Positions 6,211-16,583 of a stretch of 20,463 bases of DNA are shown here, piece after piece; the first letter of the stretch is position 1, and every line of letters starts with the position of its first letter. The notes under the pieces were generated by a model. That model did not search any database and was not told the origin of the DNA. It saw only the letters and a program-made list of their open reading frames with translations. A program made the position numbers and the translations under genes. The DNA comes from a virus. Where the stretch lies: positions 1-20,463 of the IMG/VR virus record IMGVR_UViG_3300047476_000233; one strand, given 5' to 3'.

Positions 6211-7332
6211 ATGTCAGTATTTAAAATAAAAGATAAAAGTCATCTCGAATCACCGATGTTCTTTGGTGAACCAGTCGATATTGCTCGCTACGATACAGTA
6301 CGTTATTCACAGTTTGAAAAGTTAACAGATAAACAACTTGGTTTCTTTTGGAGACCAGAAGAAATGGATCTATCTAAAGATCGTAAAGACTTTAATGATC
6401 TAAACGAATTCGAACAACATATCTTTACATCTAATCTTAAACGACAGATCTTACTTGATTCTGTTCAAGGTCGTTCACCAAACCTAGCATTCTTACCAGT
6501 TGCATCTGTACCAGAACTTGAAGTAATGGTTGAAACATGGGCATTCTTTGAGACTATTCATTCACGTTCATATACACATATTATTAGGAATGTTTATGCA
6601 AATCCTTCGAAGATTTTTGACGAAATCAAAACTATACAACCTATTCTCGATTGTGCTCATGACATTAGTGTTTATTATGATGACTTCATTAGTTACAGCC
6701 GTTATTATGAAATGCTTGGACTCGGAACTCATACAGTTAATGGTGAAACCATACGCATCGACTTATATGAACTGAAGAAGAAACTATTCTTATGCTTGAT
6801 GAGCGTATACATACTCGAAGGCATTCGTTTCTATGTTTCATTTGCATGTTCTTGGGCATTTGCTGAACTCAAGAAGATGGAAGGCAATGCTAAGGTCATT
6901 AAGTTTATTGCTCGCGATGAGAATACCCATCTTGCAGCATCAACATCTATCATTAAGTTCTTGATTAAAGATGATGAAGATATGGCAAAGATTCGCCAAG
7001 AAACTGAGAAGCAAGTTGAAGGCATGTTTAAAGCAGCTATCGAACAAGAAAAAGAATGGGCAAAATACCTATTTAAAGATGGTTCGATGATTGGTTTGAA
7101 CGAGAAGTTGTTGGCTGATTATGTAGAATGGATTGGTTGCCGTCGTATGCGTACATTAAGCTATCACTGTCCATATACTGTATCACAGTCAAATCCATTA
7201 CCGTGGACAGAGAAGTGGATTGCTGGCGGCAACGTACAAGTTGCACCACAAGAAACAGAGATCACAAGTTATATTACTGGTGGCGTTAAGCAAGACGTCT
7301 CAGCCGATACACTAAAAGGATTGTCATTATGA
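6211..7332 (+). CDS. nrdB: Ribonucleoside-diphosphate reductase beta subunit, class Ia
   Basis: Small, diiron-tyrosyl radical subunit of the reductase. 373 residues, near the E. coli NrdB length. Iron ligands are all present: Asp83 (LLDSVQGRSP), Glu114 and His117 (FFETIHSRSYTH), Glu203 (ILEGIRFY), Glu237 and His240 (RDENTH). The radical Tyr is Tyr121 in SRSYTH. The spacing matches E. coli ligands D84, E115, H118, E204, E238, H241 and Y122 with a constant offset of one. The ATG directly follows the stop of the preceding small gene. No intron or frameshift is seen, unlike the intron-bearing T4 nrdB. The stop overlaps the glutaredoxin ATG. Confidence 0.97.
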   Translation: MSVFKIKDKSHLESPMFFGEPVDIARYDTVRYSQFEKLTDKQLGFFWRPEEMDLSKDRKDFNDLNEFEQHIFTSNLKRQILLDSVQGRSPNLAFLPVASVPELEVMVETWAFFETIHSRSYTHIIRNVYANPSKIFDEIKTIQPILDCAHDISVYYDDFISYSRYYEMLGLGTHTVNGETIRIDLYELKKKLFLCLMSVYILEGIRFYVSFACSWAFAELKKMEGNAKVIKFIARDENTHLAASTSIIKFLIKDDEDMAKIRQETEKQVEGMFKAAIEQEKEWAKYLFKDGSMIGLNEKLLADYVEWIGCRRMRTLSYHCPYTVSQSNPLPWTEKWIAGGNVQVAPQETEITSYITGGVKQDVSADTLKGLSL

Positions 7333-7562
7333 TTATTGTATATTCTAAGAAGGTTTGCCCTAACTGCATTAAAGTTAAGAGCTTATTAGAATCTAAAGGA
7401 ATCAAATATCAAGAAGTAGATGTTGAAACAAATGCAGCAGGTCGTGATGTGTTGTTGAATCATAGCTTGCGCTCAGTGCCTCAAGTATTTCACGGTGAAC
7501 AACTCATCGGAGATTTTGAGAAGACAAAAACTTGGCTAGAATTAAAAGAACAAACACTATGA
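7329..7562 (+). CDS. Glutaredoxin / NrdH-like thiol reductant
   Basis: 77 residues with a full glutaredoxin fold: beta strand MIIVYS, redox motif CPNC at Cys10 and Cys13, a cis-Pro context SVPQVF, and a Gly-Asp near IGDF. It is expected to reduce the C-terminal Cys pair of NrdA. An ATGA overlap with nrdB supports translational coupling. The CPNC dipeptide differs from the CPYC of bacterial glutaredoxins and the CVYC of T4 NrdC. Confidence 0.92.
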   Translation: MIIVYSKKVCPNCIKVKSLLESKGIKYQEVDVETNAAGRDVLLNHSLRSVPQVFHGEQLIGDFEKTKTWLELKEQTL

Positions 7563-7750
7563 CAAAGAAGACATTAGAGTGTGGTACATGTGGAGCTGAA
7601 GCTACTATAGAGTTTGATTACGATCAGATCAATGAAGAGCCACAGTATTGTCCATTCTGCGGGTCGTCATATATAGAAGAGGAACTAGAGGATGATCTAG
7701 ACCTTCTTAAGAATGGCGGATTCGACGATGACATGGATATACAATGGTAA
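7559..7750 (+). CDS. Small zinc-ribbon protein with acidic tail
   Basis: 63 residues from the ATG at 7559, which overlaps the glutaredoxin stop (ATGA); an upstream ATG at 7532 would overlap by 31 bases and is less likely. Cys8/Cys11 (CGTC) and Cys31/Cys34 (CPFC) form a zinc ribbon, followed by a strongly acidic tail (EEELEDDLD). It could be a nucleic-acid mimic or a polymerase-associated ribbon. Function unknown. Confidence 0.75.
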   Translation: MTKKTLECGTCGAEATIEFDYDQINEEPQYCPFCGSSYIEEELEDDLDLLKNGGFDDDMDIQW

Positions 7751-8156
7751 GCCTTACGAGCTAGGCGAACAGACACACAAAGAAGTATATGGTTTTGTTT
7801 ACCTAATTACTGATACAGTCACATCTAAACAGTATGTAGGTAAAAAACTATTTTGGTCAAGCAGAACCAAACAGGTGAAGGGCAAAAAGAAAAGATTAAA
7901 GGTCGAGTCAGATTGGAAGACTTACTTTGGATCTAATAAACTTTTGCTAGAAGAAGTTGCAAAGAATGGTGAAGATCGGTACAAGCGAGAAATTCTCCAT
8001 TTATGTGCAGGAAAAGGAGAATGTAACTACCTTGAAGCACATGAACAGTTTACTCGCAATGTATTAACTAGCGACCAATATTATAATGATTGGATTATGG
8101 TGAAAGTGCATAGAGCACACATTAAGGGTTTACAACAGACAAAAACTGTGGTATAA
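7728..8156 (+). CDS. GIY-YIG nuclease-like protein
   Basis: 142 residues from ATG 7728; a second candidate, ATG 7713, adds five residues. I chose 7728 because MTW plus a short polar lead matches how I recall relatives beginning. GIY-YIG elements: GFVYLI (22-27), YVGKK (36-40), a basic region with Arg84/Arg87, and a downstream Glu103 in YLEAHEQF that fits the catalytic acid. Known relatives include T4 endonuclease II (DenA) and Seg homing enzymes. There is no DNA-binding extension, so a homing role is doubtful; host DNA degradation or DNA repair is more plausible. Its stop codon TAA lies inside the TATAAT of the next promoter. Confidence 0.72.
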   Translation: MTWIYNGKPYELGEQTHKEVYGFVYLITDTVTSKQYVGKKLFWSSRTKQVKGKKKRLKVESDWKTYFGSNKLLLEEVAKNGEDRYKREILHLCAGKGECNYLEAHEQFTRNVLTSDQYYNDWIMVKVHRAHIKGLQQTKTVV

Positions 8157-8157
8157 T
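8129..8157 (+). promoter_or_regulatory. Sigma70-like promoter, predicted leaderless start of RNase H
   Basis: -35 TTTACA (8129-8134), 17-base spacer, extended TG, -10 TATAAT (8152-8157). The ATG of the next gene is only 7 bases after the -10, where transcription is expected to start. No Shine-Dalgarno is present. Confidence 0.85.
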
Positions 8158-8164
8158 ATACATT

Positions 8165-9016
8165 ATGATTATCATCGACTACTCTCAAATCTCTATCGCA
8201 GCTTTCTATGCTCAGCCAAACGCTGAGTTAACCGAAGGTTTCTTGCGACATCTTATCCTTAATACTATTCGTATGTACTCTAAAAAGTACAAAGACGAAT
8301 ATGGCCAAATTGTTTTAGCCTGCGACGGTGGAAACTCTTGGCGTAAAGGTATTTTCCCACAATATAAAGCTCATCGCAAGAAAGCTCGCGAAGAATCCAA
8401 GATGGATTGGAAACTATTCTTCGAGCTGTTGACCATGATTCGTGAAGAGATCAAAGAAAACTTCCCATATAAGGTAGTGCATCTTGATCGTACCGAAGCT
8501 GACGATGTTATCGCTACTCTTGTAGAACAGACTCAAGAATTTGGTAAGAACGAACCAGTCATGATCATCTCCTCTGACGGTGACTTTATTCAACTACAAA
8601 AGTACAAGAATGTCAAACAGTTCTCGCCAATCCAGAAGAAAGTGGTTACCGACTCCAACCCTCATCTCTACTTGTTTGACCACATTATTCGTGGCGATAA
8701 AGGTGATGGTATTCCTAACATCTTATCTGGTGATAATGCCATTGTTGAAGGTACGAGACAAAGTGCTATCACTCAGAAAAAGTTAGATGAATGGTTGAAG
8801 AGCGCAGAGGATCTTAAGTCAGTAATGAATGAAGAAACTTATCGTAATTATCAACGTAATAAACAGTTGATCGATCTATCAATGATCCCTGAGAATATTA
8901 AAACCAACATTATAAATATGTATGAGAACCAAACTGTTGCACCACGTGCAAAGATTTTGGACTATCTAATTAAAAAACGTTGTAAGATGTTGATCGATTC
9001 AGTACAAGAGTTCTAA
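8165..9016 (+). CDS. rnh: RNase H / 5'-3' flap exonuclease, T4 Rnh family
   Basis: Removes RNA primers and trims 5' flaps during lagging-strand synthesis; FEN-1 superfamily. 283 residues against about 305 in T4; the difference is mostly a missing N-terminal lead. Metal-binding acids are visible: Asp5 (IDYSQ), Asp54 (CDGG), Glu111/Asp113/Asp114 (EADDVIA), Asp138/Asp140 (SSDGDFIQL) and Asp178/Asp181 (RGDKGDG). The stretch from SSDGDF to VKQFSP and the C-terminal QEF closely resemble T4 Rnh as I recall it. Because the metal ligand is residue 5, the ATG at 8165 must be the start; this anchors the claim that the transcript is leaderless. Confidence 0.94.
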   Translation: MIIIDYSQISIAAFYAQPNAELTEGFLRHLILNTIRMYSKKYKDEYGQIVLACDGGNSWRKGIFPQYKAHRKKAREESKMDWKLFFELLTMIREEIKENFPYKVVHLDRTEADDVIATLVEQTQEFGKNEPVMIISSDGDFIQLQKYKNVKQFSPIQKKVVTDSNPHLYLFDHIIRGDKGDGIPNILSGDNAIVEGTRQSAITQKKLDEWLKSAEDLKSVMNEETYRNYQRNKQLIDLSMIPENIKTNIINMYENQTVAPRAKILDYLIKKRCKMLIDSVQEF

Positions 9017-9606: not shown

Positions 9607-9774
9607 ATGGTTCCTTCCCAAATAGAAAAACTAAAAAAAGATTCAAGAGAGCTTGAGCATTGTATAGCGCGAATGAAAAAGGAGGGTCGAAGCGACAAAG
9701 TCAGTCAGCTTCAGATGAAGAAACAGCAGGTCGATAATTATATCGGCAGAATCGCAGAAGAATATTACCAATAA
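9607..9774 (+). CDS. 55-residue coiled-coil protein
   Basis: Short open frame with a strong Shine-Dalgarno AGGAG (9597-9601) five bases before the ATG. The product is highly charged and helical: heptad-like Leu/Ile/Met spacing from IEKLKKD through VDNYIGRIAEEYYQ, with no Cys pair and no membrane segment. It stands alone between a terminator and a UUCG hairpin, and I found no promoter of the local consensus before it, so it may depend on read-through or on a promoter type I cannot recognise. Function unknown. Confidence 0.68.
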   Translation: MVPSQIEKLKKDSRELEHCIARMKKEGRSDKVSQLQMKKQQVDNYIGRIAEEYYQ

Positions 9775-9796
9775 AGGCAGGTGATCCATATCTCGG

Positions 9797-9820
9797 CACG
9801 GGGAACTTCGGTTCCCCGTG
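9797..9820 (+). terminator. Very stable C(UUCG)G hairpin, possible terminator or mRNA end
   Basis: A perfect 10-base-pair stem (9797-9806 with 9811-9820, CACGGGGAAC / GTTCCCCGTG) closed by a UUCG loop with the C-G closing pair, the exceptionally stable tetraloop known from T4 mRNAs. The next bases (TTCGTTCC) are only moderately T-rich, so it may act as a weak terminator, an RNA 3' stabiliser or both. Confidence 0.75.
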
Positions 9821-9860
9821 TTCGTTCCCCAGCATGGAAAAAATATTTTCAGGGGGCCTA

Positions 9861-9889
9861 TGTACAAGCAAGAAAAACCGTGGTATAAT
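9861..9889 (+). promoter_or_regulatory. Sigma70-like promoter, predicted leaderless start
   Basis: -35 TGTACA (9861-9866), 17-base spacer, extended TG, -10 TATAAT (9884-9889). The ATG follows after 6 bases, with no Shine-Dalgarno. Confidence 0.85.
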
Positions 9890-9895
9890 AGATCT

Positions 9896-10231
9896 ATGCT
9901 GATCTATACTAATCAATCATCTAAAAAGCGCAAGCACAAACCAACTGCTAAGCAACGCGAGTTGGCTGCATCATGGGACGCGCTCCTCAAGAAGTACGAG
10001 CCTAAAAAAGTATTGCCTAAGGTTGCTGCAGTCAAAGCGCCTAAGCCATACGTACGCGAGACGCCGCACTATCCTTCACTGAATAGTGGCTATCACGACT
10101 GTACAAAAAAGCAGCAACATCACTACACCGGTGACAAGATGCTTGGTATCGGTACACTTCACAAGTCTAATGCCGTACCAGTCTTTAGTAGCGATGACGC
10201 GAAAGAGATTAGTCGTATGCGCAGAGGATAA
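9896..10231 (+). CDS. Conserved phage protein with C-terminal GIGTLHKSNAVPVF motif
   Basis: 111 residues from ATG 9896. The frame is open further upstream to 9818, but that stretch runs through the promoter and hairpin, so the inner ATG is chosen. The N-terminal half is basic and Lys/Pro-rich (KKRKHKPTAKQ, then KAPKPY), the C-terminal half has YTGDKMLGIGTLHKSNAVPVF and ends KEISRMRRG. I recall the C-terminal motif from uncharacterised proteins of many phages. The basic N-terminus suggests nucleic-acid contact. No enzyme motif is seen. Single-gene unit with its own promoter, followed by a GC-rich structured region. Confidence 0.8.
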   Translation: MLIYTNQSSKKRKHKPTAKQRELAASWDALLKKYEPKKVLPKVAAVKAPKPYVRETPHYPSLNSGYHDCTKKQQHHYTGDKMLGIGTLHKSNAVPVFSSDDAKEISRMRRG

Positions 10232-10262
10232 TCTCCAGTTTTATTCCAAGTCGAAATAGCGT

Positions 10263-10313
10263 GGGGGTCACCCCGGGCCCCCTTGACTCCCCCAGTTTGA
10301 GGGGCCCTGGGGG
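10263..10313 (+). other. GC-rich multi-hairpin element in an AT-rich intergenic region
   Basis: A patch of G and C runs in a 222-base gap between genes (10232-10453). Competing pairings are visible: GGGG/CCCC around TCA (10264-10274), GGGCCCC (10275-10281) with GGGGCCC (10301-10307), and CCCCCAG (10289-10295) with CTGGGGG (10307-10313); GGGGG at 10263-10267 can also pair with CCCCC at 10289-10293. No T-tract follows. It may be a Rho-independent-like end without U-tract, a structured RNA or a processing site. The rest of the gap up to the promoter at 10398 shows nothing I can name. Confidence 0.6.
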
Positions 10314-10397
10314 TAGCTAAAAGTACTAATTTCCTGCAATAGTCTACAGTTTTAGTCAAGTAAAAAGTCCAATGAAATCAATAACTTGCAAGGGCTA

Positions 10398-10426
10398 TGT
10401 ACAAGTAGCATGTTTTAGGGTATAAT
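10398..10426 (+). promoter_or_regulatory. Sigma70-like promoter of the 10454-14598 unit
   Basis: -35 TGTACA (10398-10403), 17-base spacer, -10 TATAAT (10421-10426); here the base pattern before the -10 is GGG rather than TGG, so the extended element is absent. 27 bases separate the -10 from the next ATG, which has an AAAGGA ribosome binding site. The sequence around it closely repeats the promoter at 9861. Confidence 0.82.
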
Positions 10427-16248: not shown

Positions 16249-16254
16249 TATAAT
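16226..16254 (+). promoter_or_regulatory. Sigma70-like promoter embedded in a gene end, predicted leaderless start
   Basis: -35 TGTACA (16226-16231), 17-base spacer, extended TG, -10 TATAAT (16249-16254). The next ATG is at 16260, 5 bases after the -10. No Shine-Dalgarno. Confidence 0.84.
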
Positions 16255-16259
16255 ATATC

Positions 16260-16583
16260 ATGAGTTTGGAAGAATTCTTTGTAGCGAGTAATGATGACGA
16301 GATTAAAGCAAAAATTAGGCAGCGTAGAGCGCAAATGCTCGTGCACTCTTGCATATATTATGAGCTTAATGACAACATCATTAGCGACCATCTTTGGCAA
16401 AAATGGGCTGACGAGCTTGAAGAATTACAAAGGAACAATCCTAATTGCTGCAATATTGGGTTTTTTGACAGTGAATTCTCTAATTGGACTGGTGCAACAG
16501 GTAATCACCTACCGCACCGTGATCCTTGGGTTATGAGAAAATCACAATATATTATGATGTTACATAGGAATAAGTATGGATAA
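16260..16583 (+). CDS. Small phage protein resembling the Ia region of NAD-dependent DNA ligase
   Basis: 107 residues. IRQRRAQMLVHSCIYYELNDNIISDHLWQKWADELEELQ has the spacing of the N-terminal Ia helices of bacterial LigA (a Tyr-Tyr, then isD, then W or YD and EL..L), the part that binds the nicotinamide end of NAD. The rest ends in PHRDPWVMRKSQ. No nucleotidyltransferase domain or Lys active site follows, so it is not a ligase. I recall the family from many phages without known role. The resemblance is from pattern only. The next gene begins within its 3' end. Confidence 0.75.
   Translation: MSLEEFFVASNDDEIKAKIRQRRAQMLVHSCIYYELNDNIISDHLWQKWADELEELQRNNPNCCNIGFFDSEFSNWTGATGNHLPHRDPWVMRKSQYIMMLHRNKYG

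Follow-up and report, generated by a model that had tools for sequence, protein, structure and literature searches.

In T4-type phages, promoter early stem-loops (PeSLs) are described as 'composite conserved promoter-terminator motifs' (PMC4503421). The locus analyzed here resembles them in layout: in 15 of 15 aligned rows, a stem-loop-capable sequence lying between variable small genes is followed by a promoter that is of early type by its sequence. It comes from a 20,463-base IMG/VR phage contig (the whole of this stretch is hereafter referred to as the window), in which a GC-rich patch with several possible folds had been picked out by a sequence-only reading. The element is real and conserved; it is specific to one group of T4-like phages, and Rfam does not name it. 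We interpret it, with a probability of about 0.4, as a clade-specific non-coding boundary element of these phages, equivalent to the transcript-end or insulator half of a terminator-promoter cassette.

Genomic setting and distribution of the element

The large genes of the window all lie on one strand and, on the basis of the ORF list and profile matches, form a T4-like gene set. PHROG profiles identified exonuclease, PhoH-like and ClpP-like protease families; the small subunit of ribonucleotide reductase was named through matches in annotated phages, and another gene is taken by us to encode the large subunit. Positions 10256-10320 form the only stretch of the window containing a 50-mer of at least 70% GC (best value 76%, window mean 39.2%), and the description of the patch as exceptional in an AT-rich genome was thus borne out. 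When composition was checked more widely, in a 167.6-kb relative (G001; GC 35.2%), three stretches reached this level, the element and two others that look like Gly-rich coding repeats. The element does lie, as had been noted, in a gap, flanked by the stop codon that ends the 9896-10231 gene and by the promoter at 10398, but conservation extends beyond the interval first delimited (Table 1).

Table 1. Positions of the element, its parts and the neighboring features (window coordinates unless a locus is named)
Feature	Position	Strand	Basis or remark
Early-type promoter of upstream gene, TGTACA-17-TATAAT, with AGGGGGCCTA directly 5' of -35	9861-9889	+	
Upstream gene, 111 aa, phrog_27048, no assigned function	9896-10231	+	Ends directly 5' of element
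Conserved non-coding element, moves as a unit	10232-10310 (about)	+	Alignment, divergence test, L008 junction
Element 5' part (T-run, CCAAG, GAAA, GCG), AT-rich, sequence-conserved	10237-10261	+	Alignment
GGGGGTCACCCC, small potential hairpin	10263-10274	+	Alignment, folding
G/C box 1, GGGCCCCC	10275-10282	+	Alignment
G/C box 2, AGGGGCCC	10300-10307	+	Pairing with box 1 possible; absent from L010
Promoter of next operon, TGTACA-17-TATAAT, with AAGGGCTA 5' of -35	10398-10426	+	
G-run box at -35, example	9852-9861		
G-run box at -35, example	L194 15124		
G-run box at -35, example	L193 14518	-	

A coding function was rejected, as no frame with a conserved start stays open in all 15 rows, and core changes are spread over the three codon positions (29, 20 and 34), with none favored. 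No tRNA or tmRNA was detected. Searches against Rfam at gathering score returned no match for the window, L012 or L007; a permissive search returned CyaR, CrcZ, MEG8 and others, with scores far under the gathering values, and these were judged to be chance matches. The suggestion of a replication element received no support from GC skew, which makes no turn at the element: in both the window and G001, the cumulative curve keeps rising across the site. This test is weak, since origins of the T4 type need not show a turn in skew.

The two halves of the element were searched for with separate, independent DNA patterns, which matched in 14 and 18 stretches; together with L010 and L035, these matches place the element in 22 IMG/VR contigs besides the window, counted by contig name. 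A relative of the upstream gene is encoded at 19 loci, 13 of which (L002-L014) carry the element and six of which (L015-L020) do not. It was not found either in sister loci with the same gene and promoter (e.g. L039, L042, L043, L045 and L050), and L038 has neither the element nor the upstream gene. On a tree of the neighboring DUF6433 protein (a Pfam match; 35 rows, 18 of them element-bearing), the distribution of the element requires three changes, versus 11.8 for shuffled labels, and one gain followed by two losses is a possible history. A sequence model was scanned against 59 sources (sister loci, other T4-like records and G001), with matches in the window and G001 only, and the core was matched once per record in the four element-bearing records among eight searched. 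A host repeat was rejected, as exact matches to the core pattern were found in none of 84,980 bacterial and archaeal genomes. In isolated phages, DNA similarity searches did not find the element, the matches falling on the promoter part of the query (219-259); the sequence model had no match in Acidovorax phage ACP17, Synechococcus phage BUCT-ZZ01 or Delftia phage PhiW-14, the closest isolates that encode the upstream gene. The literature within reach of our search, which excluded most subscription papers, contained no description of the element or of the GGGGCC box considered below. In another T4-like contig (L262), positions 7017-7814 hold a gene whose product we take to resemble the curli secretion protein CsgG.

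The distance from the upstream stop codon to the core is 42-45 bases in all 14 rows that include the upstream gene. A TGTACA-N-TATAAT promoter lies downstream of the core in all 15 rows, with 57-128 bases to the -35 box and no common helical phase, and a fixed spacing to the promoter was therefore rejected. The genes on both sides differ between relatives. In L008, other genes separate the phrog_27048 gene from the element, and the last of these (6304-7269, presumably encoding a carbamoyltransferase) runs straight into the block with an exact 5' junction and stops at a TAA within it, the promoter still lying downstream. The 3' end of this gene is fused to the element, so that its last codons are element sequence. 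The L008 junction indicates that the element has a sharp 5' border, stays 5' of a promoter and tolerates translation of its first half. Elsewhere in the region, AATGAAATCAATAACTTGCA is conserved 10-25 bases 5' of the -35 box (10363-10390 in the window) in most element-bearing and some sister loci. At three promoters (9889-9896, 8157-8165 and 16254-16260), 5-7 bases separate the end of the TATAAT from an ATG, and the corresponding mRNAs would thus be leaderless or nearly so.

Conservation of sequence and of pairing

Divergence was calculated as the mean over all pairs of the 15 distinct rows. It was 0.171 in the core (columns 14-60), versus 0.503 at the four-fold sites of the upstream gene, and rose past the core to 0.335 in columns 61-84 and 0.663 in columns 85-105. 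Between the window and L024, differences were found at 16 of 23 four-fold sites and at 2 of 46 core positions. The far lower divergence of the core indicates that the block is functional, unless exchange keeps the copies alike, and the expectation of a functional element of some kind was in this respect upheld. Absence from close relatives, with random changes in both stem arms, had been named as an outcome that would count against it; the element is instead present and conserved in them. The composition is extreme for the genome, which would fit an artefact of sequencing or assembly or a GC patch arisen by chance, but 22 further contigs, drawn from many metagenomes, carry the element in the same position; this, together with selection against change, refutes such an explanation, to which we attach a vanishingly small probability.

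Folding in silico produced the several mutually exclusive stems that had been proposed: GGGG(GUCA)CCCC, GGGGG/CCCCC and GGGCCCC/GGGGCCC. The minimum-energy state accounts for 0.9% to 4.7% of the ensemble of the window element and, among the 14 sequences folded, the minimum-energy fold varies from phage to phage. The energies are nevertheless ordinary for the composition: the 111-nt window fold had a z-score of -1.02 (35 of 200 dinucleotide shuffles as good) and the 86-nt fold a z-score of -0.63 (49 of 200), and all 14 sequences lay near their shuffled controls (z from +0.84 to -1.67). As fold energy is not clearly below that of the shuffles, the stems are what composition gives.

The co-variation in related phages that the sequence-only reading had asked for was sought with a consensus fold and an arm-swap test, in which the pairing energy of arms matched within a phage is compared with that of arms swapped between phages. 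Neither gave any. The RNAalifold consensus contained nine pairs, one of them with a two-sided change, and its covariation term was +0.29. For one stem of the element, matched arms paired no better (-12.31) than swapped arms (-12.66, sd 0.21), and for the other there was no gain from matching (-15.59 versus -15.58, sd 0.04), although for the GGGCCCC/GGGGCCC stem, in which paired bases almost never change, the comparison has little power. A control hairpin about 450 bases upstream (9797-9820; 14 element-bearing loci, 10 distinct arm pairs) was, by contrast, clearly positive, with -18.42 for matched and -12.57 for swapped arms and none of 5000 permutations as good. The phages have therefore diverged enough to reveal RNA co-variation where it is present, and the failure of the element's arms to co-vary while the control hairpin does so implies that what is conserved is the sequence. 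On these comparisons, conservation of the element is conservation of sequence, and its stems are potential ones. The region containing the control (9774-9827) has a conserved AAAGG.AGGTGATC..TATCTCGG followed by the hairpin with strongly co-varying arms, in element-bearing and sister clades alike; its AGGTGATCC part is, we presume, similar to the complement of the 16S rRNA 3' end.

The statement that no T-tract follows the element held for the window (two T in the next eight bases), but not for 4 of the 15 rows, which have at least five T within that distance; T6 in L007 and T5 in L008 follow the stem directly. Calling of terminator-like sites in the window returned none at the element.

G-run boxes at early-type promoters

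A GGNC..TA box directly 5' of the TGTACA -35 was found at 24 of 59 distinct promoters in element-clade loci, versus none of 21 in sister loci and none of 13 in farther loci (element clade against sister loci, Fisher p = 1.8e-4, for rows that are not phylogenetically independent). The eight GGGGCC sites of G001, counted on either strand, comprise five at promoters, two in the element and one elsewhere, which we take to be tRNA-like in appearance. All three GGGGCC sites of the window are at a promoter or the element, and the 95,856 bases of sister loci contain none. At the place of the G box, sister loci L039, L045, L046 and L048-L051 have an AT-rich near-palindrome, ACTAATTTAGTCAACTATT, 5' of their promoters.

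A scan of IMG/VR for GGGGCCTATGTACA identified 98 places in 92 fetched loci, 66 with a -10 box at the right distance and 32 without. In several T4-like phage groups, a G-run followed by CC and TA, extending up to GGGGGGCCTA, lies directly 5' of the -35 TGTACA; the box promoter pattern had no match in 84,980 bacterial and archaeal genomes. As T4-like contigs with the box but no match to the element model exist, the box is wider in distribution than the element. Conversely, in the element-bearing loci L007 and L008 the adjoining promoter has no G box. A link between box and element may be considered suggestive; if true, this clade would have a transcription factor and a promoter code of its own still to be discovered.

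Proposed boundary role, rival readings and known systems

The boundary interpretation is based on four features: the element starts at the stop codon of a gene, is under selection at the level of sequence, always lies upstream of an early-type promoter of the next operon, and behaves as one block whose 5' border is sharp. RNA polymerase starting from the 9861 promoter would read into the element, where the G/C-run stems formed in the RNA (the GGGG-CCCC hairpin and GGGCCCC/GGGGCCC) would stop, pause or end the transcript, and the next operon would then depend on its own promoter. The 5' part, with its T-run, GAAA and GCG, would be read sequence-specifically by a protein or the polymerase, as a hairpin on its own has no need of it. 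We infer termination at the element, in line with the T6 and T5 that follow the stem directly in L007 and L008 and with the five or more T within eight bases in 4 of the 15 rows. The hairpin-then-promoter layout recurs at 9797-9820 and 9861, and the loose distance to the promoter is such as a transcript-end element would allow; this spacing and the L008 layout favor a boundary or transcript-end role over a fixed-geometry activator. Against a boundary role, 11 of the 15 rows, including the window, have no T-tract after the stem, fold energies are about those of shuffled controls, the arms do not co-vary, and box 2 is missing in L010. Most of the conserved columns would also be dispensable for a hairpin, and in L008 the ribosome would translate the element's first half.

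The main rival is a role in DNA binding. The G/C boxes may be a cluster of operators for a factor that recognizes the GGGGCC(C)TA box 5' of early -35 sequences as well, the element loading or titrating this factor near the promoter of the next operon. The presence of the box at 24 of 59 element-clade promoters and at none of those in sister or farther loci, the concentration of GGGGCC at promoters and the element (7 of 8 sites in G001 and 3 of 3 in the window) and the preservation of sequence rather than pairing all point in this direction. However, the spacing to the promoter varies without helical phase, the box is absent from the promoters adjoining the element in L007 and L008 and present in other T4-like contigs without the element by the sequence model, and an element made of G/C runs contains GGGGCC from composition alone. 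We consider this reading rather unlikely. Slightly less probable again is a G-tract regulatory code, in which a factor would read GGGGCC at early -35 boxes and the element would be a dense cluster of boxes serving as its loading or control site, with sister phages lacking both. A different explanation is a recombination junction that related phages exchange often enough to keep its copies similar, and that has no regulatory role of its own. Flanking gene content varies while the block stays, with the exact 5' junction seen in L008, and PeSL-type cassettes are reported to mediate shuffling in T4-like phages (PMC4503421). Exchange would, however, need to spare just this block, as the flanks are fully diverged within 20-40 nt; moreover, the element is single-copy in the four element-bearing records searched and tracks the gene tree (three changes versus 11.8), which makes such a junction improbable. 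A switching RNA or attenuator, in which GCG-GGGGG/CCCCC-CGC would exclude GGGG/CCCC together with GGGCCCC/GGGGCCC, had been raised at the outset and has in its favor the alternative pairings in silico, the differences in minimum-energy fold among relatives and the stem with T-run of L007 and L008. It fared poorly: swapped arms pair as well as matched ones while the control hairpin co-varies, the consensus fold offers a covariation term of +0.29 with a two-sided change in a single pair, no Rfam family matches at gathering score, and the element, having the promoter of the next operon downstream, is not in the leader of that operon. We judge it to have a low probability, similar to that of a recombination junction. 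The locus thus provides a clear case in which GC-run folding hints at a switching RNA that co-variation, tested alongside a positive control hairpin of the same phages, does not support.

Whichever role it has, the element is a non-coding block of T4-like phages, outside Rfam, that is more constrained than the silent sites of the neighboring gene. It differs from riboswitches in that its stems do not co-vary and it is not in the leader of a regulated gene. It resembles Rho-independent terminators in its GC-rich stem and in the T5-6 tail of L007 and L008, but the window and most relatives have no T-tract, the stem is not co-varying, and the conserved 5' T-run and GAAA/GCG are foreign to terminators. 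The neighboring promoters resemble T4 early promoters (UP/-35/TGn/-10) in their -35 box, the TGn-like GTGG 5' of the -10 box and the TATAAT (cf. PMC2988021), and differ from them in the G-run and CC directly 5' of the -35 box of some promoters, a box not mentioned in the accessible part of that source. With PeSLs, the element shares, in addition to its layout, a position at a junction of gene exchange, as L008 shows; it differs in being a long G/C-run block conserved in sequence, mostly without a T-tract, and in being single-copy per record rather than present in many copies, the layout alone recurring at 9797-9889. If it is a boundary element, it would be a sequence-conserved relative of the gene-shuffling terminator-promoter cassettes of T4-like phages.
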